A stretch of 35,519 nt of DNA from an uncultured Lachnospiraceae bacterium (GTDB taxonomy: Bacteria; Bacillota; Clostridia; Lachnospirales; Lachnospiraceae), in assembly GCA_947174495.1 (NCBI GenBank), contig CAMWJC010000031.1:1-35519 (forward strand). The letters run 5' to 3'. The position numbers were made by a program, and so were the translations under genes. The notes under the pieces were generated by a model. It was not told where the DNA came from, made no database searches, and saw nothing but the letters and a program-made list of their open reading frames with translations. Below, one piece after another: positions 24,407-34,625 of the stretch. How positions within the stretch are numbered: position 1 is the first letter of the stretch; each line of letters opens with the position of its first letter.

Positions 24407-25447
24407 TTACTTTGCAACCTTTACCGCCTCCTTCAGAAATATGAAGTCAAACTCATTTTTCATGGATATAACATTCCAGCCGTATTGTTCCGCCAGTGCG
24501 TCCCACTCGGCACGTTCTTTGACATTATACTGATATTCCCGTTCATCATCATCGTGATTAATCAAAAGTGCAAGCCCCGCGTGATTGGGATTATACTTTG
24601 CATAATTGAGCATAGAAAAATCGCCATCAGTATTCCCGCATGCCAGAATCGGACGGATGCCAATCTGGTGATAAATATTATATACCTTATCCATTTTCAC
24701 ACTGTGCTGGGTAAAACCCAATCCTCTGATCAGGGAATCTTCCGGATCAAAAATTTCATGTCCTGATACATCAGGTGCACTGCCTTCTGCTCCTGCTTTC
24801 AGGGTGATATCACCACCGATCATCTGTGAGCGGGGCAGCATGACAACTTCCGATGCAGCGCCCCATACAACGCCGCGTTCAGACCCTGAGACGATATACA
24901 CAGTAAAATCATTTTTTTGCAGGTATTGAATCAATTCCAGCATAGGTTTATAGAAGCAGTCTTTGTAGGTTAGTCCCGGAAAATCCGGCTTTTCTTCCTG
25001 CATAAACCAATTCATATATGCCACAAAGTCCTCTTGTGTCATTCCCCGAAAGGCTTTTCCGGTAACATCAGCGATCAGCTGTCCCGTATCATCAGGCTCC
25101 GGATCCATTTTGATATTTTCAAATAATTTATCCTTTTGTGCCACTAATTCCTTGTCATCATTCAGCTCATTGTCAATACGGTATGCTGCCACGGCCAATT
25201 CCAGCCAGGTCTTCTTCTCCACAACAATAGTGCCATCCATGTCAAAGGTGGCAATTCGCTCTTCCACGGGGACATAATTATCACTTTTTTTATTCGTGAC
25301 ATCTTTGACAAAATCTATGATTGCCTGTTTGTTGACAGAATCATCATTCCATGAGGGAAGCGCATCCTTGGCGCCGCATCCACAGAGTATTCCTGACAAA
25401 ACACATGCGATCAGCGCCAGATATGTTCTTCGAAATCTCTTTTTCAT
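24407..25447 (-). CDS. HAD-family phosphatase lipoprotein
   Basis: 346 residues from ATG 25447; the AAGGAGG site overlaps the stop codon of the preceding glycyl radical enzyme gene. A lipoprotein signal peptide (LALIACVLSGILCGC, modified Cys near residue 26) places it outside the membrane. HAD motifs: FDMDGTI (motif I, two Asp), VSGSERG (motif II Ser), a Lys near MDKVYNI (motif III) and CGNTDGDFSML (motif IV, acidic). A large cap region of about 100 residues lies between motifs I and II. It is therefore a probable secreted phosphomonoesterase of the phosphoserine/phosphorylcholine phosphatase type; the substrate is not known. Being last in the operon suggests it feeds the enzyme upstream. Confidence 0.85.
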   Translation of the reverse strand: MKKRFRRTYLALIACVLSGILCGCGAKDALPSWNDDSVNKQAIIDFVKDVTNKKSDNYVPVEERIATFDMDGTIVVEKKTWLELAVAAYRIDNELNDDKELVAQKDKLFENIKMDPEPDDTGQLIADVTGKAFRGMTQEDFVAYMNWFMQEEKPDFPGLTYKDCFYKPMLELIQYLQKNDFTVYIVSGSERGVVWGAASEVVMLPRSQMIGGDITLKAGAEGSAPDVSGHEIFDPEDSLIRGLGFTQHSVKMDKVYNIYHQIGIRPILACGNTDGDFSMLNYAKYNPNHAGLALLINHDDDEREYQYNVKERAEWDALAEQYGWNVISMKNEFDFIFLKEAVKVAK

Positions 25448-25463
25448 ATGCGCGTGTGCCTCC

Positions 25464-28013
25464 TTAATTTTGTGTGATCCTGATGATGTAATCTCTCTGT
25501 TGTCCAAGACTCATGGAGATAAACGGTGCCTGCCATCCGCCTACACGAACATTGATGTGCTTGTACTGTTCCAGTTCCTGATAGAGGGCTTCGTTGTCTT
25601 GAGTGTTAGCAGCATCATAACAGAGTTTATAAATTTTCTGGTAAACATCCTTATTGCCAAATGCCAGGGTAAGCATATTGCCGTTCGTTTCCCTGAATTT
25701 GTCAATCAATCCCACAATATAGGCTTCATTTTTCTGGGACTCATCAATACACAGATCCACAATCGCACCGGCTGATAATCTGTCCATGGGTAAATTCTTA
25801 TAGGACTCAAAAACATTTCCGATTCCCTTGCTGATGGTTCCTGATACAGGGGAGAAGTTGGCTGTCATCGGATCGTTGGAATGTCTGTTTGCAGATGCAA
25901 CAATACCCTTCCCCTGATGCGGGAACTGCTCAAAGGTTCCGCACCCTGCTGTAAAATGCATGTTGAAATTGCGTCCGAAGCGTTCCTTAAAGGAAGCGCC
26001 ATAATATCCTGCAATGCTTCTGAGATGGAGGATCTGCTCCTGCTCAAATGACAATTTCCCGGTATCCTTGTCCGGTGTCAACGGATAAAGGAAGACCGTA
26101 TCCGCCAGCTTTTTGGAATGCTCCACCGCATCACAAAAGGTATTAATAATGAAATTTGCGACTTCATTGGACGCAGCATCACCAAATTTAGGTGAATCCA
26201 CATCGAAGTCGTTTCTCATTTCCAGATACTTTTCCTTCAATTCCACTTGAGACTCATCGGCAGTGAAATCGGCTTTCATAGCTTCACGCACTTCATCCAT
26301 TGTATATTTGTGCTCATCGAATACCCACTTTTTGATTGCACAGGTCGTATTGATCACATCCGGCATACCGATCATAATAGTTCCACCAATATTGTATTCG
26401 GGACCGCCCCACGCCTTATCGCATCCTTTACGCATACAACCTCCCAGTACTGCCGAGTAAAGCGGCGAGGGATTGATGTACTCGTCCATCATATAGCACT
26501 CGTAAAGCGAGAAGGTTGACTGGTCAATAAAGAACTGCATATACTTCTTGAAGGTTTCCTGAAATTCTACATAGTTTGTCACTTCATCGGAAATGAAACT
26601 CAGTTTACCGCCTCTGAGCATTCCGGGATTTGTGTCCAGTGACGCGCCCCGGTTAATGGTACATTGCAGAATCGGCATACAATTGAGCATGCCAAATGTC
26701 CAGTCGGATATTCCATTGAGAATCGGTTCCCAGCATCCATCCACACAGTAATCATTTGCCAGTTTTTGATACTCTTCTCTTTTCTCAGAGGGCACATTGG
26801 TCTTATAATCAAGCAGACTGTTTGTGAGTGCCGGAATTAATACATCATCATTCAAGAGTCCTGGTATATTTGCAGTTTGGTCCAGACACCTGACAATGCA
26901 TTCAATATATTCCCTCGGTGAATCCTTGTGCACTCTGGCATAAATGCCCGGTGTAGAAAGATTAACGTTGGCAAAGGCATTCAGGATAATATAAGTCATC
27001 GGGTTCGTTGCATCCCTGCCCTCCGGAGTCAGACCGCCGACAATTACATTTTGCAGGAAGTTATTGACACCGGCACGCTGATCCAGATAGTAGGGATGAA
27101 TGCCCAGAGCGGCATTGTTATCCATATGATCCTGGGTCATCAGATATTTTGTAGTAATATTTAATCTTCCGGCAGCCTTAATGATAAGACATTCAAACAG
27201 TTCTGTGCATTCCCTGATATACGCCTCATCGTCAATTCTATTTTTATCCAGATATTCATTCAGTACCTGATCCAGTCTTCCGAAAGAAATATAGTTCATG
27301 CTCGCATGAAGCGCTGTGTGGAAGGTACAGATTGCCTGTACTGCCTCATGATAAGTATCCGGGGAATTGGCAGGAACTTTTCTGCAGATTCGTGCAATTT
27401 CCAGAAGCTCTCCGCGGCGCTTTGAGCCGTCTTCATATTTCTGTGCTTCCGCCTCAGCCAAATCCGCATAACGGTTAGAATAATCAATCACCGCCTGACA
27501 GCTTATGGCAACCGATTTGTAAAAATCTATTTTGCCATAAATCTTTTTATCCGCCATTTCCAGTTTCTCTGTTTTTTGTCTGGCCTCCGCGATGATTGCA
27601 TTCAATCCGCCCGCAAACAGGCGATTATAGTCCACTGTGTTGTGTCCGAGCAGAGCCATTTCGGTTTTGTTGGTAAAGGAAGCTACCCGGCGTTCGCTTT
27701 CCGTGAGATAATTCGGGAATACTTTTCCCAGACCGTTTGACCCCATGGGAATCACACCCACGATCAGTTCATCTTCTCCGATCTCGTAAGTGTGTGTATG
27801 TCTGGAACAATTTTCATCTGTCATTTTCGTAAGCATCTCTTCGATGGCGTATGCCTTGCGGATTGCCGCAGACTTGTCGGGATATTTCTCTGCAATGTCC
27901 TCAAATTCCCTACAATCAAACCATTCACTGCTGCGGTCGCTCATGCCCTTTTCGTATAAAGCATCAAGCAATCTTCCTACCCGCTCACTCTTTTGTACCC
28001 AATAATGACTCAT
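25464..28013 (-). CDS. Divergent glycyl radical enzyme (pyruvate formate-lyase superfamily)
   Basis: 849 residues from ATG 28013, chosen because AAAGGAG lies just before it; two in-frame ATGs upstream have no such site. The C-terminal glycyl loop is VRVGGWQAPF followed by an LGQQRDYIIRI segment; the radical sits on the Gly after RV. The thiyl Cys with the neighbouring acid is in GCWEP (about residue 435), equivalent to GCVEP of choline, glycerol and propanediol lyases. GHNTVDYNRLFAGGL near residue 125, ASANRHSNDPMTANFSPVSG and GGPEYNIGG fit the superfamily. The WHD-type segment that follows GCVEP in those enzymes is absent: here it reads ILNGISDWTFG. The reaction is probably a C-N, C-O, C-C or C-S cleavage in the anaerobic cytoplasm, but the substrate class cannot be named. 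Activated by the product of 28051-28971. Confidence 0.9.
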   Translation of the reverse strand: MSHYWVQKSERVGRLLDALYEKGMSDRSSEWFDCREFEDIAEKYPDKSAAIRKAYAIEEMLTKMTDENCSRHTHTYEIGEDELIVGVIPMGSNGLGKVFPNYLTESERRVASFTNKTEMALLGHNTVDYNRLFAGGLNAIIAEARQKTEKLEMADKKIYGKIDFYKSVAISCQAVIDYSNRYADLAEAEAQKYEDGSKRRGELLEIARICRKVPANSPDTYHEAVQAICTFHTALHASMNYISFGRLDQVLNEYLDKNRIDDEAYIRECTELFECLIIKAAGRLNITTKYLMTQDHMDNNAALGIHPYYLDQRAGVNNFLQNVIVGGLTPEGRDATNPMTYIILNAFANVNLSTPGIYARVHKDSPREYIECIVRCLDQTANIPGLLNDDVLIPALTNSLLDYKTNVPSEKREEYQKLANDYCVDGCWEPILNGISDWTFGMLNCMPILQCTINRGASLDTNPGMLRGGKLSFISDEVTNYVEFQETFKKYMQFFIDQSTFSLYECYMMDEYINPSPLYSAVLGGCMRKGCDKAWGGPEYNIGGTIMIGMPDVINTTCAIKKWVFDEHKYTMDEVREAMKADFTADESQVELKEKYLEMRNDFDVDSPKFGDAASNEVANFIINTFCDAVEHSKKLADTVFLYPLTPDKDTGKLSFEQEQILHLRSIAGYYGASFKERFGRNFNMHFTAGCGTFEQFPHQGKGIVASANRHSNDPMTANFSPVSGTISKGIGNVFESYKNLPMDRLSAGAIVDLCIDESQKNEAYIVGLIDKFRETNGNMLTLAFGNKDVYQKIYKLCYDAANTQDNEALYQELEQYKHINVRVGGWQAPFISMSLGQQRDYIIRITQN

Positions 28014-28050
28014 AACCTCTCCTTTCCCGTGCCTTGGCACATCCATAAAA

Positions 28051-28971
28051 TTAATTGATTCTGGTTGCTTGTATTCCTGCATGGCGGAAATATTTCAGAA
28101 TATTTTCCAGTTCCTCATTGCTGGGAATGCATTGATTTAGATCGAGTTCAGCCTCCTTTCCTATTAATTCATAGTAATGATTCATATGTGGATTACATGG
28201 AAGGATTTCCAGTTCCATGATTTCATTCTCAAGTAATATATCCCGAAAAGTACACAATTGCTCTTCTCTATCCGTATATTCTCTGATAACCGGAAGCCTT
28301 GCGATCAGGCGGGGATTTGATGCCTGCCTGAAAATAGCAACCTGACTTTTGCAATTTGATCGAACGGTTTGGGATTCAAAGTCCTGCGGAAGATACACCT
28401 GGCGAAAACCAAGAAGCCAGCAGTCAACATACTGGGCTGCTTCCTGATAAATGGAATCCGGCAACAACATGGAGGTTTCCACACAAGTGTTTACCTGATA
28501 GTCCCTGCACAATTTCAAAAACTCAATGGCTGCTTTATCCTGCAGCAGGGCTTCACCACCGCTTAAAGTGATTCCGCCGCTTTTTTGAACCAGATCTAAC
28601 TGTGGGCGAAGCAACTCAAACAGCTCGCTGGTATCCTGCCTGACTGTAGGTATAGATAAAGCACTATTGGAAGCAGCAACCGTGGAATAGGGGCAGGCAA
28701 AAATACACTTGCCGCAATACGTACATTTGTCCCGATCAATAAAATGTTCTGTTGGAGTGACTTTATGTACTTGGTTAGGGCAGACTGCCTCACATTTTCC
28801 ACACAAATGACACAGGCGCTTCTGAAAAAGTAAAGGGGAAATATCAAATCTCGAATGAGGAGAATGGCACCATGGGCACCGCACAGGGCAGCCTTGCATA
28901 TACACTACGACCCGATTGCCGGGTCCGTCCTTGGTTGACAGCCAGCCGATTGCCCAGTATGCAATTTCCAT
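28051..28971 (-). CDS. Glycyl radical enzyme activating protein (radical SAM)
   Basis: 306 residues. ATG 28971 is chosen over an upstream in-frame start because AGAGGA stands 7 nt before it and the N-terminus then begins directly at MEIAYWAIGWLSTKDGPGN. The radical SAM cluster is CPVRCPWC (CxxxCxxC) near residue 30. An insert with two 4Fe-4S ferredoxin motifs follows (CHLCGKCEAVCP and CTYCGKCIFACP), typical for activases of lyase/dehydratase-type enzymes rather than of pyruvate formate-lyase. SGGEALLQ binds SAM. It makes the 5'-deoxyadenosyl radical that abstracts H from the Gly of the enzyme encoded 37 nt downstream. First gene of the operon. Confidence 0.94.
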   Translation of the reverse strand: MEIAYWAIGWLSTKDGPGNRVVVYMQGCPVRCPWCHSPHSRFDISPLLFQKRLCHLCGKCEAVCPNQVHKVTPTEHFIDRDKCTYCGKCIFACPYSTVAASNSALSIPTVRQDTSELFELLRPQLDLVQKSGGITLSGGEALLQDKAAIEFLKLCRDYQVNTCVETSMLLPDSIYQEAAQYVDCWLLGFRQVYLPQDFESQTVRSNCKSQVAIFRQASNPRLIARLPVIREYTDREEQLCTFRDILLENEIMELEILPCNPHMNHYYELIGKEAELDLNQCIPSNEELENILKYFRHAGIQATRIN

Positions 28972-28998
28972 AAACACATCCTCTCTGCAAGTGAAAAA

Positions 28999-29041
28999 AT
29001 TCGACATAATCTTACATTTATTTTAGCATTTAATGTCGAAT
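28999..29041 (-). promoter_or_regulatory. Inverted repeat upstream of the glycyl radical operon
   Basis: ATTCGACAT at 28999-29007 and ATGTCGAAT at 29033-29041 are perfect 9-bp inverted halves with centres about 34 bp (three turns) apart. A regulator for this operon probably binds here. A promoter is not clear: TTGACC lies upstream at about 29056-29051, but its best -10 is weak. Confidence 0.5.
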
Positions 29042-29094: not shown

Positions 29095-29140
29095 CATAAA
29101 AAGGTGTAAAGTCTTGATATTTTAATAGACTTTACACCTT
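29095..29140 (-). terminator. Terminator downstream of the DUF4143 ATPase
   Basis: Perfect 14-bp inverted repeat (AAGGTGTAAAGTCT at 29101, AGACTTTACACCTT to 29140) with a 12-nt loop, followed on the minus strand by TTTTTATG. It separates the ATPase gene from the glycyl radical operon. Confidence 0.88.
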
Positions 29141-29184
29141 GGTTTATGATATTTATTCTTTTTTGTTAATGCCATAAAATCTGT

Positions 29185-30486
29185 TTATATATCAACAGCA
29201 TTCTCTTCCAGCAAGAACTGTTCTATTCCAACATATAAAATACCGTTCTCATCATGCCAAGGAATAATGTCATCCCTTACAACAACTATCTTCCGAAAAG
29301 AATCCGGTACTCGAAGCAATGAATTGATTTCCTGCCTTCTCTTCCCTTCATCGTCAATAGAAAATGCTGACTGAATATAGTAGCGCTTGCTGCCTTTATT
29401 GGCAACAAAATCGACTTCAAGCTGTATTCTTACTTTCTTTCCATCTTTATTTTGAGAATTATACTCAACAACACCTACATCTACATCATATTCTCGTGCC
29501 TGCAATTCATTAAATATGATATTTTCCATAATATGATTCGCTTCCTGCTGTCTGAAATTTAAACGGGCATTGCGAAGTCCCACATCTGTAAAATAGTATT
29601 TCAGTGGTGTATCAATATATTTTTTTCCTTTGATATCATACCGAAATGCTTTATACATAATAAATGCATCTAAAAAATAGTCAAGATATTTACTGATGGT
29701 ATTCGCAGTGACCGAAACCTGTTTTACGCTTTGAAAGGTCTTGGAAAGCTTTGTCGGATTGGTAAGCGATCCTACAGCGGATGATACAATATTCAGTAAA
29801 TCCTCAAGCACAGACTGTTCATTCAAAATTTTGTTGTGTTCTATTACATCTGAAATATATGTCTTTGCAAACAGGTCTTTCAGATATTTACTCTTTTCTT
29901 CATGCGTTTTCTTTGAGAGAACTAATGGCATCCCTCCATAGGTGTAGTACTCCCTCCAAGCATGTCTCTTTTCCCCTTCATATGCAGAATAAAACTCACT
30001 ATATGTCAATGGATTGACTCTGATTTCATCTCCACGGTCTTTAAACTCCGTCAAAATATCAGATGAGAGCATGCGCGAGTTGCTTCCCGTCACATACAAA
30101 TCGACATTTTTAATCTTCATTAATCCCAACAGAACATCGACAAATCCTATTTTGGACTCTGTATCATCAACATAAGGATTTTGTATTTCAGATACTTTTT
30201 GAATTTCATCAATAAAAACATAAAATTTCTGCTCTTTATCAGTAATCTGCTCCCGAATATACTGATCAAGCTCCAACGGATTACGATATTTTGCATTCAT
30301 CACTTCATCTAATGCAAGTTCAATAATATTATCGTTTGAAACTCCAATAGAATTCAAATATTCATGATACAGTTCAAACAAAAGGAATGATTTTCCACAT
30401 CTTCTGATCCCTGTAATAACTTTAATCAGACCATTTTCCTTTTTCGCTATTAGTTTGTTCAGATAGCGATCTCTGTTAACAACCAT
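29185..30486 (-). CDS. AAA ATPase with DUF4143 C-terminus
   Basis: 433 residues from ATG 30486, which has GGGAGGG upstream; a longer in-frame start would run into the operator-like repeat. Walker A TGIRRCGKSFLL, Walker B VFIDEIQK, sensor YVTGSNSRML, then the typical HAWREYYTYGGMPLV segment of the AAA_14 domain. The C-terminal half (about 200-433) is the DUF4143 nuclease-like domain; LEVDFVANKGSKRYYIQSA resembles a PD-(D/E)xK core with D and the ExxxxxQ-like strand. These genes are common and variable in anaerobes; a role in defence or toxin-antitoxin-like control has been suggested, but the function is unclear. It stands alone with its own promoter and terminator. Confidence 0.9.
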   Translation of the reverse strand: MVVNRDRYLNKLIAKKENGLIKVITGIRRCGKSFLLFELYHEYLNSIGVSNDNIIELALDEVMNAKYRNPLELDQYIREQITDKEQKFYVFIDEIQKVSEIQNPYVDDTESKIGFVDVLLGLMKIKNVDLYVTGSNSRMLSSDILTEFKDRGDEIRVNPLTYSEFYSAYEGEKRHAWREYYTYGGMPLVLSKKTHEEKSKYLKDLFAKTYISDVIEHNKILNEQSVLEDLLNIVSSAVGSLTNPTKLSKTFQSVKQVSVTANTISKYLDYFLDAFIMYKAFRYDIKGKKYIDTPLKYYFTDVGLRNARLNFRQQEANHIMENIIFNELQAREYDVDVGVVEYNSQNKDGKKVRIQLEVDFVANKGSKRYYIQSAFSIDDEGKRRQEINSLLRVPDSFRKIVVVRDDIIPWHDENGILYVGIEQFLLEENAVDI

Positions 30487-30500
30487 AAAACCCTCCCGAA

Positions 30501-30611
30501 TTATTTCTGCGGGCATCCGCATTTTTAATCTGAGATAAGTATTTCATATTCATAGAGAAAAGTCAACCGTCTAAAAATTATTTTTGCGGATACCCGCATT
30601 TTTAATTCGAT
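30501..30611. repeat. Two palindromic direct repeats flanking the ATPase promoter
   Basis: About 30 bp at 30501-30530 and again at 30578-30608, each with a GC-rich palindrome (TGCGGGCATCCGCA at 30508-30521; TGCGGATACCCGCA at 30585-30598) inside AT-rich arms. Offset 77 bp. The differences lie mainly in the central four bases, and both palindromes keep TGCGG/CCGCA halves. Confidence 0.8.
30538..30566 (-). promoter_or_regulatory. Promoter of the DUF4143 ATPase
   Basis: Minus strand TTGACT (30566-30561), 17-bp spacer, AATACT (30543-30538). One palindrome lies just after the predicted start site, the other about 20 bp upstream of the -35 box, so a bound protein could cover or loop over the promoter. 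Confidence 0.6.
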
Positions 30612-31123: not shown

Positions 31124-31564
31124 CTATATATTTCTTCTTACATTTAAAACATTCATCAGCGCTTCCTGTAATACCCTTGAAACATTTATTCCAGCATGTT
31201 CTGCTTCATAATTCAGCCAACTTGGAAGTGCCACATTTCTTCTGACAGTTTTTGTATCAACTTTTTTCCTATATTCTGTAAAGTCAACATCCACATAAGT
31301 CAAAACACCTTTTGAAAAATCAATATCTTCTATGTCCTGCCTTACTTTTTCAATTGCTGCTCCTTGATCTGATGGCACAGGAAGTTTTTCTTTATTGTCT
31401 TCCATTGAAATTCCAGCTAATCCAATAGCATCCCTTGCCATTTCTATAGCATCTGCAAAAGTATCACCTTCTGTAAATATTTCCATATCAGGAACACATA
31501 CTAAAAAAGGGTGTTCAGAACCATCATTCGTATTAACTATAAAAGTTGGATAAACCTGTTTCAT
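31124..31564 (-). CDS. hicB: HicB-type antitoxin
   Basis: 146 residues from ATG 31564, which has AAGGAG eight bases upstream. The N-terminal HicB fold (YPTFIVNTNDGSEHPFLVCVPDM, TEGDTFADAIEMARDAIGL) neutralises the toxin; the C-terminal part (RRNVALPSWLNYEAEHAGIN, then VSRVLQEAL) is a ribbon-helix-helix-like DNA-binding end. It lies 12 nt after the toxin gene in one operon. HicB normally represses the pair; the palindrome in the promoter spacer at 31786 is the likely operator (inference). The 300 nt after it (30828-31123) show no gene. Confidence 0.9.
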   Translation of the reverse strand: MKQVYPTFIVNTNDGSEHPFLVCVPDMEIFTEGDTFADAIEMARDAIGLAGISMEDNKEKLPVPSDQGAAIEKVRQDIEDIDFSKGVLTYVDVDFTEYRKKVDTKTVRRNVALPSWLNYEAEHAGINVSRVLQEALMNVLNVRRNI

Positions 31565-31576
31565 ATAATTCACTCC

Positions 31577-32110: not shown

Positions 32111-33799
32111 TTATCTCTTCAGTTGTTGTTTACAGCAGTCAGGGAATGTCGGCGACCATGGCATTAATTCTGCCAGCTTATCTTCCGGGACATCGTTTCT
32201 TGGATATTCCTTGAGCTGGTCCATCAGATACTGGAAGTATTCATACGGATTCAGTCCATTTGCCTTTGCGGTTTCTGCAATGGAATACATCATGGCACTG
32301 GCTTTTGCACCGTTTTTAGATTCTATGATGTGCCAGCTGTGTTTCCCTACACAGAATTTTTTGATACTTCGCTCAGCATCATTGTTATCCAGCGGTACTT
32401 CCGGATCCTCCAAAAAAGTGCGAAGATACTGTTCCTGATTCAACGAATAATTCAAAGCAGTTCTTAAAGCAGAACTATGATCCAGCCCCGGATTATCCAC
32501 GAATCCTTTTATCCACGAAAAATAAGCATCTACCAGAGGTTTCACGGACTGCTGTCTGTTATCCAGAATCTCCTTTGGTGATGTCCCCTTATACATGTGG
32601 TCTGTATGATAGATTGCGGCAATCCTTTTGACTGCTTCATCAGCTACCTTCTGTCCGGAGGTCATTGCCCTTTTATCACCTGCAGTTTTAACGATATCTG
32701 CAAATTTTCTGCGGGCATGCACCCAACAGCCGGCTACCTTGATATCATCTGCCCTTTCCTTTTGCAGTGTATGATAGGATTGGTATCCGTCCGTTACCAG
32801 TACACCTGTATAGTCCTTCAGATATTCTCCTATGACATAACCGGCTCTCGAACCGTTATCATATTCATAAAGATAAACCGGATGACAACTGTCATGCCCT
32901 GGCGAATGATATACCCACATATAGTCTTTAGACTGTGGATCAGCTACATCTTTTTCTCCGGTCATCTTAAATGGTGATTCATCACAGTGAATCAGATGCG
33001 AGGAAAAGAGTTCTGTTTTCATCATCCGGTGAACGGGTTCCAGATAGTACCTGTGCAGCTTGATCATCCAGCCGGCCATGACTTGGCGGGATATCTGGAT
33101 GCCATCGTATCCATAGCCTTCCGAAATCCGGTTCAGGGGCACTGCATTTACATACTTTGCCGTAAATACAGAAGCTGCCAGGGATGGTGTCAGAATACTA
33201 TGGTTTAGCAGGCGCTTAGGAGCTTCGCCGCGAATGATCTTTGCATCATTTCCATTTCCGGCATATACGCCGATGTGATGCTCTACTACTTCATAGCTGG
33301 CAGGAATGCGTTTGAGCTCTTTATAGACTTCATCCTCAAGCTGGTGCCATCCTTTCGGGAAGGTTTCGTTAAGGGTATCCTCATTGAGGTAATGGGATTC
33401 TGTAGTGGTCTTTATACCTGCAAGGTCAACCGCACGTTTTCCCTTTGGACGTGGTTTTCTTACCGGAACCGTCTCATCTATGGAAGGTTCTTCCGGAAAG
33501 CCGTTTTCCGTAAAGATTTCAGCCTCATTAAAAACATTCGGATTGTCAAGGTCAAAGGAAAGCTGCCCCGAAATCTGCAGGTTCTTTTCAGAACGGGTGC
33601 CAAATCTCTGCTGGGTAAGTATGGTCAGCTGTTCCTTTAAATCTTCCACCTGCTTCAGGAGCTGCTCGTTCTGCTTTTGAATCACAGCTGATTGTTCCGA
33701 AAGAATACGGAAATTTTCATTCTGCTGCAGGAGTAACATAATAATGGTTTCCTTCGGAAGAATATTCAGTTTTTCTTCTGTAAATAACTGATTTTTCAT
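32111..33799 (-). CDS. tnpC: IS66 transposase TnpC (DDE)
   Basis: 562 residues, full length. N-terminal coiled-coil (LLLQQNENFRILSEQSA through QLTILTQQRFGTRSE), then a Zn/helix-turn-helix region and the DDE core: HCDESPFKM, VTDGYQSYH and the final Glu in LDNNDAERSIKKF. The CHPVYLYEYDNGSRAG segment and the C-terminal NPYEYFQYLMDQLKEYP tail are typical of IS66. Catalyses transposition together with TnpA and TnpB. Starts 105 nt after tnpB. Intact, so the element may still move. Confidence 0.96.
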   Translation of the reverse strand: MKNQLFTEEKLNILPKETIIMLLLQQNENFRILSEQSAVIQKQNEQLLKQVEDLKEQLTILTQQRFGTRSEKNLQISGQLSFDLDNPNVFNEAEIFTENGFPEEPSIDETVPVRKPRPKGKRAVDLAGIKTTTESHYLNEDTLNETFPKGWHQLEDEVYKELKRIPASYEVVEHHIGVYAGNGNDAKIIRGEAPKRLLNHSILTPSLAASVFTAKYVNAVPLNRISEGYGYDGIQISRQVMAGWMIKLHRYYLEPVHRMMKTELFSSHLIHCDESPFKMTGEKDVADPQSKDYMWVYHSPGHDSCHPVYLYEYDNGSRAGYVIGEYLKDYTGVLVTDGYQSYHTLQKERADDIKVAGCWVHARRKFADIVKTAGDKRAMTSGQKVADEAVKRIAAIYHTDHMYKGTSPKEILDNRQQSVKPLVDAYFSWIKGFVDNPGLDHSSALRTALNYSLNQEQYLRTFLEDPEVPLDNNDAERSIKKFCVGKHSWHIIESKNGAKASAMMYSIAETAKANGLNPYEYFQYLMDQLKEYPRNDVPEDKLAELMPWSPTFPDCCKQQLKR

Positions 33800-33904
33800 A
33801 CCTCTATTATACCAGAAAAATGGTCAAAAAGCAGCATATTTCTTGACTTTTTCGAGATTTCCGATAACCTATTTAACTGTCAAGGTACCTATAGAAAACG
33901 GGTT

Positions 33905-34264
33905 CTAATAGAGCTCCGGTTTTAACGGTGAAATCATTTTTTTCTGTTCAATTGATAATCCTTCCATCAGCCAGCGGAACTGCTGGGGCGACAATTGTTT
34001 TGCTTCCTGCTCATTTCTGGGCCACTGGAAACGTCCACCGCCTGTGAGTCTCTTGTAACACAGCAGCCACCCGTCTCCTTCAAAAAGCAAGGCCTTGATA
34101 CGGTCCGTTTTTCTCCCGCAGAAGAGAAAAATACTGCCTTCTTGTGTGGGGTCAAGACCAAAAGTTCCATTGACGACAGCGATGAGTCCATCAATTCCGT
34201 TTCGAAGATCCGTATATCCGGTGCACAGATATATGTGGGAGAAACCAGCAGCATTATTGAGCAT
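33905..34264 (-). CDS. tnpB: IS66 accessory protein TnpB
   Basis: 119 residues. [36 protein letters not shown] and [11 protein letters not shown] are diagnostic of IS66 Orf2. It overlaps tnpA by 11 nt, giving translational coupling. Needed for full transposition in IS66 relatives; its biochemical role is poorly known. Confidence 0.95.
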
Positions 34265-34625
34265 TCTTTATCACCCCGATCGTTTTGGCAAGCAGTGCAG
34301 AAGAGGTGTTTTCTGTGACCTGTATCGTAATCCCATTGACAGATAACGTAAGCTGTGATGGTGCCGGCTTTTCTACCGAAATTGGAGTAACCATAGATAT
34401 CTCTGAACCATTATCTGCCTGCAGGCTCAGTTCTACAAACCCAGAGGCTGACGGTTGTTTCAGGGCTTCTTCCCGGATAATTCGCAGCCAGTAAAAGTAG
34501 GAATGCCGGCTAAGCCCATTTTGTTTACAGTACTCATCTACGGTCAGATTCGTATTGTTGCGGTCCTGAATAATTGCTTTCCATTGTTGGATACGGTAAT
34601 TGCGTTTGACGGAACGTGTGTCCAT
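34254..34625 (-). CDS. tnpA: IS66 accessory protein TnpA
   Basis: 123 residues from ATG 34625 with AAGGAGG ten bases upstream. A helix-turn-helix near the N-terminus ([20 protein letters not shown]) fits DNA binding. The C-terminal half ([20 protein letters not shown]) is a small beta-rich tail as in IS66 Orf1. First gene of the IS operon; its promoter lies within 34630-34717. Confidence 0.9.

Follow-up and report, generated by a model that had tools for sequence, protein, structure and literature searches.

A glycyl radical enzyme of an uncharacterised branch, encoded with its activase and a putative surface phosphatase in Lachnospiraceae

The window analysed in this work is one whole contig of 35,519 nucleotides (CAMWJC010000031.1, assembly GCA_947174495.1) from an uncultured Lachnospiraceae bacterium, whose genome is 78.3% complete. 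On its minus strand, three closely packed open reading frames (ORFs) encode a radical SAM activating enzyme (AE), a glycyl radical enzyme (GRE) and a lipoprotein of the haloacid dehalogenase (HAD) family. At the level of sequence, the comparisons reported here establish the gene set, its order and co-inheritance, the intact catalytic residues and the placement of the enzyme in an uncharacterised GRE branch. As the best single account of function, we propose a small catabolic cassette with a patchy distribution. Acting on the GRE, the activase would install a radical at Gly826; from there it would move to Cys427, which would abstract a substrate hydrogen, and Glu429 and His124 would assist departure of the adjacent hydroxyl to give a carbonyl product (a dehydratase-type 1,2-elimination). 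The substrate would be a polyhydroxylated small molecule such as a polyol, a cyclitol or a sugar-like compound; in most carriers the lipoprotein phosphatase, on the outside of the membrane, would free it from a phosphate ester, and the freed molecule would then be imported into the cell. Judging from the aligned residues, the chemistry is probably of the dehydratase type. The neighbourhoods of sister enzymes tip the balance slightly towards a polyhydroxylated substrate, and we lean to about the same extent towards the HAD protein as its supplier. Since these component guesses are linked, not independent, our confidence in the whole account falls a little short of even. We suggest more tentatively that the family represents a new GRE specificity, a radical dehydratase acting on a polyhydroxylated substrate released outside the cell by a dedicated lipoprotein phosphatase, and that it is one family in a larger, uncharacterised and carbohydrate-directed branch marked by CWE at one radical site and GG at the other.

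The operon contains the following features.
28051..28971, minus strand: GRE-activating enzyme (AE), radical SAM, with QGCPVRCPWC and two ferredoxin-type CxxCxxCxxxC motifs (TIGR02494)
25464..28013, minus strand: GRE of 849 amino acids, uncharacterised branch (PF02901, orthologues, trees)
26733..26735, minus strand: codon of Cys427 (GCWEP), aligned with the active-site Cys
26727..26729, minus strand: codon of Glu429 at the C-x-E position (alignments)
27642..27644, minus strand: codon of His124, aligned with glycerol dehydratase His164 (phmmer alignment, MAFFT)
25536..25538, minus strand: codon of Gly826 (RVGGW), aligned with the radical Gly
27060..27167, minus strand: GRE loop insertion, residues ~283-318 (RLN...QDHMDNNAALGxHPYYLDQRAGVNN), near-invariant in six orthologues
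24407..25447, minus strand: HAD-family lipoprotein (DMDGT, SGS, Lys254, GNTDGD; lipobox Cys24), from the 4ovy match and motifs

The genes are separated by gaps of 37 nucleotides (AE end at 28051, GRE start at 28013) and 16 nucleotides (GRE end at 25464, HAD start at 25447), and the ribosome-binding site of the HAD gene (TAAGGAGG) overlaps the GRE stop codon. This packing had been described in an earlier reading of the letters alone (the sequence-only reading), as had the GCWEP and RVGGW motifs and a HAD lipoprotein; all were found as named in the minus-strand ORFs, DMDGT is present too, and the HAD motifs of the lipoprotein are intact. The sequence AAAGGAGAGG lies immediately 5' of the GRE start at 28013. 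The GRE ORF can be extended back to an ATG at 28082 (872 amino acids); orthologous ORFs begin near 28013. For the activase, a start at 28971 is likely rather than at 29007.

Membership of the superfamily is clear, with 354.2 bits for the GRE against PF02901 (PFL-like; cut-off 24.3). The activase scored 174.7 bits against NCBIfam TIGR02494 (cut-off 174.35) and fell under the cut-offs of all equivalog activase models; an activase ORF adjoins the GRE in all six loci that carry this GRE family (G941 judged by eye). Against eight NCBIfam models, every score of the GRE itself was far under the cut-off. With equivalog cut-offs of 1000-1150 bits, hydroxyproline dehydratase (172.8 bits), sulfopropanediol dehydratases (202.8 and 188.3 bits), indoleacetate decarboxylase (133.8 bits) and hydroxyphenylacetate decarboxylase (90.6 bits) were rejected, and the PFL2-3 model gave 250 bits (cut-off 678). 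Choline trimethylamine-lyase CutC was rejected on its score (218.8 bits, TIGR04394 cut-off 1050) and on a differing pocket residue, and isethionate sulfite-lyase on merely 97.9 bits to PDB 7kq3. The labelled GREs that we aligned are 23-29% identical to the window enzyme. Model scores, identities and trees all agree with the divergence from characterised families that the sequence-only reading had claimed.

The closest solved proteins are the B12-independent glycerol dehydratase (1r8w, 187 bits) and CutC (9f3w, 184 bits). Cys427, Glu429 and Gly826 align with their counterparts in both and are invariant across the six orthologues, and Glu429, two residues past the Cys, gives the enzyme the C-x-E arrangement expected of eliminases. 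His124 occupies the position of glycerol dehydratase His164, whereas two CutC rows carry Asp there. We take His164, His281, Ser282 and Asp447 to have pocket roles in glycerol dehydratase; only the first is retained in the window GRE, and a glycerol/propanediol dehydratase was rejected for this reason. Two aligned rows of the GWHD type are 27-29% identical to the window GRE, which differs from glycerol dehydratase further in lacking a segment of ~60 residues and in the extra loop at 283-318. The sequence-only reading also described a WHD-type segment as lacking; the segment is shortened rather than absent, SDWT aligning with GWHD (glycerol dehydratase) and QWTS (CutC) at a length of 1-2 residues less.

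Several of these features extend beyond the window family. The pairing of GCWE with GG at the radical site, which had been presented as setting this enzyme apart, is real and unusual but not private, being shared by five genes at L070-L074 (RMGG[LW]) and by the enzymes of genomes G015 (RMGGL) and G340 (RLGGL), which are 28-30% identical to the window GRE; L070-L074 and G340 rule out GCWEP and RVGGW as private signatures. The window family and the G015 and G340 enzymes are also without the ~60-residue segment that in the other rows follows the first IVG motif and precedes the His loop, and they have a long insertion before a VNNF/ANNF/ANHW stretch. GCWE, R[VML]GG[WL], the missing segment and the loop insertion are marks of a wider branch. 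In the trees its sister rows, all from Lachnospiraceae, are L007 (the same gene as L070), L008 and L071-L074, the last four recovered by a search with the G340 enzyme and all four having GCWE and VRMGG[LW]. These sisters share the signatures, the missing segment, the loop insertion and the tree group with the window family; they differ in that no HAD partner was noticed and sugar-type importers lie nearby. A 24-row tree joined the window family and two sister rows with support of 100/99, and in a 41-row quick tree a branch with 99 SH-aLRT separated twelve rows (the window family and six sisters) from the rest. PflB was included in the smaller tree and dropped from the larger one for its long branch. 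Among the ten loci L007-L016, L014 (a partial frame) was excluded from the trees; 30 loci (L070-L099) were scanned, of which 18 entered the 41-row tree, two (L070, L080) duplicated rows already present, and the other ten were mostly of one hydroxyproline-dehydratase-like motif type.

Two further GRE groups were observed in this survey. A third compact group (L078, L085, L088, L090) of ~670-700 amino acids shows VRVWGW around the radical Gly; the three rows displayed have ACWE and are likewise without the segment. The group falls on the opposite side of the 99 SH-aLRT branch. The other (L010, L011, L013, L016, L062:5533-7902) has GCVVP, with no Glu two residues after the Cys, and adjoins CutC in the tree.

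The six loci of the window family comprise the window, L002 and L003 (Acetatifactor metagenome-assembled genomes), L017 (genome G339), L004 (Anaeromicropila populeti) and L042 (genome G941, from another family of the same class). Conservation of the three-gene order, which the sequence-only reading had put forward as a check, holds in five of them, with the HAD gene missing from G941. In the HAD-bearing loci, the GREs are 90, 90 (L002/L003), 70 and 64% identical to that of the window, compared with 62% in G941; the corresponding values are 83, 81, 64 and 55% for the HAD proteins and 75, 74, 59 and 43% for the activases. Flanking genes differ between loci wherever they are visible (300 nucleotides upstream of the cassette are in view in L002 and 500 nucleotides downstream in L017).

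Orthologues are rare in every genome set. Of 397 genomes of the family, 3 have one, counting the own genome, and the other ten matches there are 31-36% identical. In the class set it is 2 of 341, the own genome and G941. Only the own genome has one in the genus (1/37), order (1/392) and phylum (1/199) sets, and only G941 itself among 22 genomes of its family; scanning the species collection with a pattern turned up three loci. As these sets overlap and most were sampled from larger groups, the counts speak for patchiness and not for absence. Together with the changing neighbours, this patchy presence suggests that the cassette has spread by transfer. Among viral contigs, 48 stretches matched a pattern and none encodes a relative. 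On plasmids, all 49 records with GRE matches and all 218 with HAD matches were under 60% identity, the best HAD value among the matches listed being 35.1%.

The HAD lipoprotein scored slightly under the cut-off for the Pfam HAD family PF12710 (25.4 bits; cut-off 27) and matched PDB 4ovy over nearly its full length (E 5e-40). This structure, presumably from Planctopirus limnophila, bears only the name 'haloacid dehalogenase domain protein hydrolase'. Searching with a profile built from the five cassette HADs gave no second structure better than E 0.2. The DxDGT, Ser, Lys and GNxxGD motifs are intact in all five, as is a lipobox-like N-terminal Cys, within a canonical lipobox in A. populeti (LIGC) and G339 (LSGC) and a looser one in the other three (LCGC, LCGC, LCSC). 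In the window protein the conserved residue is Cys24 (LCGC), whereas the pattern scan took an earlier LIAC site. Two relatives outside the cassette carry a fused histidine acid phosphatase domain (L056:8248-10632, L057:6329-8761), which fits phosphomonoester hydrolysis at the cell surface. These fusions, lipoprotein-like and with a branch 2 histidine acid phosphatase, amount to a two-phosphatase surface protein in their own right. The cassette HAD is very probably a surface phosphatase.

Relatives of this HAD protein were found in 18 of 250 Lachnospiraceae genomes, 16 of which hold them outside the cassette (17 matches) in varied surroundings. Sixteen of the 17 matches were used in a tree (G051 was excluded, its ORF not being called cleanly, and fused HADs were trimmed to 420 residues), and against these the five cassette HADs form one clade with support of 100/100. 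The branching order within that clade is that of the GRE tree. A separate clade and a shared branching order argue that the HAD gene was inherited with the GRE gene.

The Escherichia coli ybiY-ybiW-ybiV genes, for an activase, a GRE and a HAD phosphatase, have the same order as the cassette, so a phosphatase gene behind a GRE gene is not new in kind. YbiW is 22.9% identical to the window GRE and lies elsewhere in the trees. YbiV, annotated as a sugar phosphatase and presumably a cytosolic Cof-type HAD, differs from the exported 4ovy-type lipoprotein of the window, and it is this export that distinguishes the cassette. The substrate cleaved by YbiW is given as 1,5-anhydroglucitol-6-phosphate in the review PMC12441222, citing Ma et al. 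2024. Among the papers listed in a search of the open-licence literature, none dealt with a GCWE or polyol GRE, with a phosphatase encoded in a GRE operon, or with a GRE in connection with Anaeromicropila.

Clues to the substrate come from gene neighbourhoods. Read by eye, all six sister loci examined (L019, L020, L100-L103) encode sugar enzymes as well as a sugar-type ABC importer. Pfam bore out DeoC, Dak1, Dak2, LarA and a transketolase half, each at a single locus. As a separate observation, L102 and L103 have the GRE, DhaK, DhaL, a ROK kinase and a GH1 glycosidase in one gene run (Pfam for Dak1 and Dak2 in L102, reading by eye for the others), likely a sugar or polyol route of its own. In G941, 393 nucleotides separate the activase-GRE pair from a GH1 glycosidase gene, and genes for a LacI-type regulator and a sugar importer come next (the glycosidase and the binding protein assigned by Pfam).

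The aligned and invariant catalytic positions, the presence of His124 rather than the Asp of CutC, the tree grouping with the sister enzymes, the sugar genes at sister loci, the conserved gene order, the co-branching of HAD and GRE, the histidine acid phosphatase fusions and the ybiY-ybiW-ybiV order all favour the account proposed above. Other observations weigh against this proposal, and the first is the G941 locus. There, activase and GRE are followed by a strong hairpin (-30.2 kcal/mol, z -7.6, 0/200 shuffles equal), and the ~240 nucleotides between the GRE and the contig end hold no HAD start. A HAD profile search at E 0.001 gave no match in this 97% complete assembly and one match, the cassette copy, in each of the other three genomes tested. 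The sequence-only reading had staked its link between enzyme and phosphatase on the HAD gene being present at homologous loci, and at this one locus of the six that expectation failed. The phosphatase is not required for the GRE reaction, given that G941 does without it; an indispensable HAD partner is thereby ruled out, and the phosphatase is a usual but dispensable member of the cassette. Among the GREs, A. populeti diverges ahead of G941 (97/90 in the 24-row tree, 81 in the 41-row tree), which makes loss of the HAD gene in G941 the simplest account if the sister enzymes root the tree. The proposal is further weakened by the sister enzymes themselves, which are only 24-30% identical to the window GRE and group on their own with a support of just 83 in the 41-row tree. 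With the long stems of both groups, long-branch attraction is possible and the substrate class may not carry over.

The case of G941 also bears on whether the HAD protein is a general phosphate scavenger that shares a promoter with the GRE, its product not being the GRE substrate. Such a role would suit the relatives outside the cassette, none of which adjoins a GRE gene in the stretches read by eye, some of them shortened by contig ends. We nevertheless consider it doubtful, as the cassette HADs stand apart from those relatives as a clade and the gene keeps its place next to the GRE gene across at least three genera while other neighbours change.

A different substrate is indicated by the A. 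populeti locus, which also counts against a polyhydroxylated compound. An amino-acid-type ABC importer, its binding protein matching amino-acid-binding proteins, lies 135 nucleotides upstream of the activase on the same strand and is the transporter closest to the operon in any locus. Divergent from it are genes for a class III aminotransferase resembling ArgD (TIGR00707, 434 bits, cut-off 410), an XRE-type regulator (best match PuuR, far under its cut-off) and an Fe-type alcohol dehydrogenase. The GRE could then act on an amino acid or amino alcohol, for instance a hydroxylated amino acid, taken up by amino-acid import after the HAD protein frees it from an O-phospho form. This neighbourhood occurs in one of the six loci and was not seen around the operon of the window, L003, G339 or G941 (L002, with its 300 nucleotides, is uninformative). 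We gave the sister loci more weight, being six against one despite their low identity, and regard an amino compound as unlikely. Least probable by far is a C-N lyase that cleaves choline or ethanolamine supplied by an exported phosphatase acting on phosphocholine or phosphoethanolamine: CutC is among the closest solved relatives of the GRE and a secreted HAD phosphatase would suit phosphocholine (PchP of Pseudomonas is a phosphocholine phosphatase of the secreted HAD type), but the CutC score is far too low, His replaces Asp, the GRE falls outside the CutC group in both trees, the HAD profile reached no phosphatase structure besides 4ovy up to E 10, and no microcompartment gene was noticed by eye among the ORFs around the operon, where no dedicated search was made.

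Around the operon in the window, one further feature was annotated.
29101..29141, minus strand: terminator-like hairpin 3' of the upstream AAA/DUF4143 gene, ahead of the operon (folding against shuffles)
This hairpin with its U5 run (-21.7 kcal/mol, z -7.5, 0/200 shuffles equal) sets the operon apart from the upstream gene. At the other end, the 67 nucleotides directly 3' of the HAD gene show no folding advantage over their shuffles; 117 nucleotides beyond the gene, a glycosyltransferase gene begins on the same strand. Just upstream of the operon are an AAA_14/DUF4143 ATPase (29185-30522) and a HicB-like antitoxin (31124-31573). An IS66-type insertion element (32111-34625, minus strand) lies 3 kb upstream, with an IS66 transposase and TnpB/Orf2 identified by Pfam; where TnpA would be expected there is a third, small ORF (34254-34625) without a Pfam match.

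GREs determine the use of choline, hydroxyproline, sulfonates and anhydro-sugars by anaerobic gut bacteria. The family described here lies outside the curated specificities tested, and its branch recurs in Lachnospiraceae beside sugar genes. Anaeromicropila populeti 743A is a carrier of the cassette with a public genome. If the phosphatase does feed the GRE, the cassette would provide a route from host or plant phosphate esters to the substrate of a radical enzyme.

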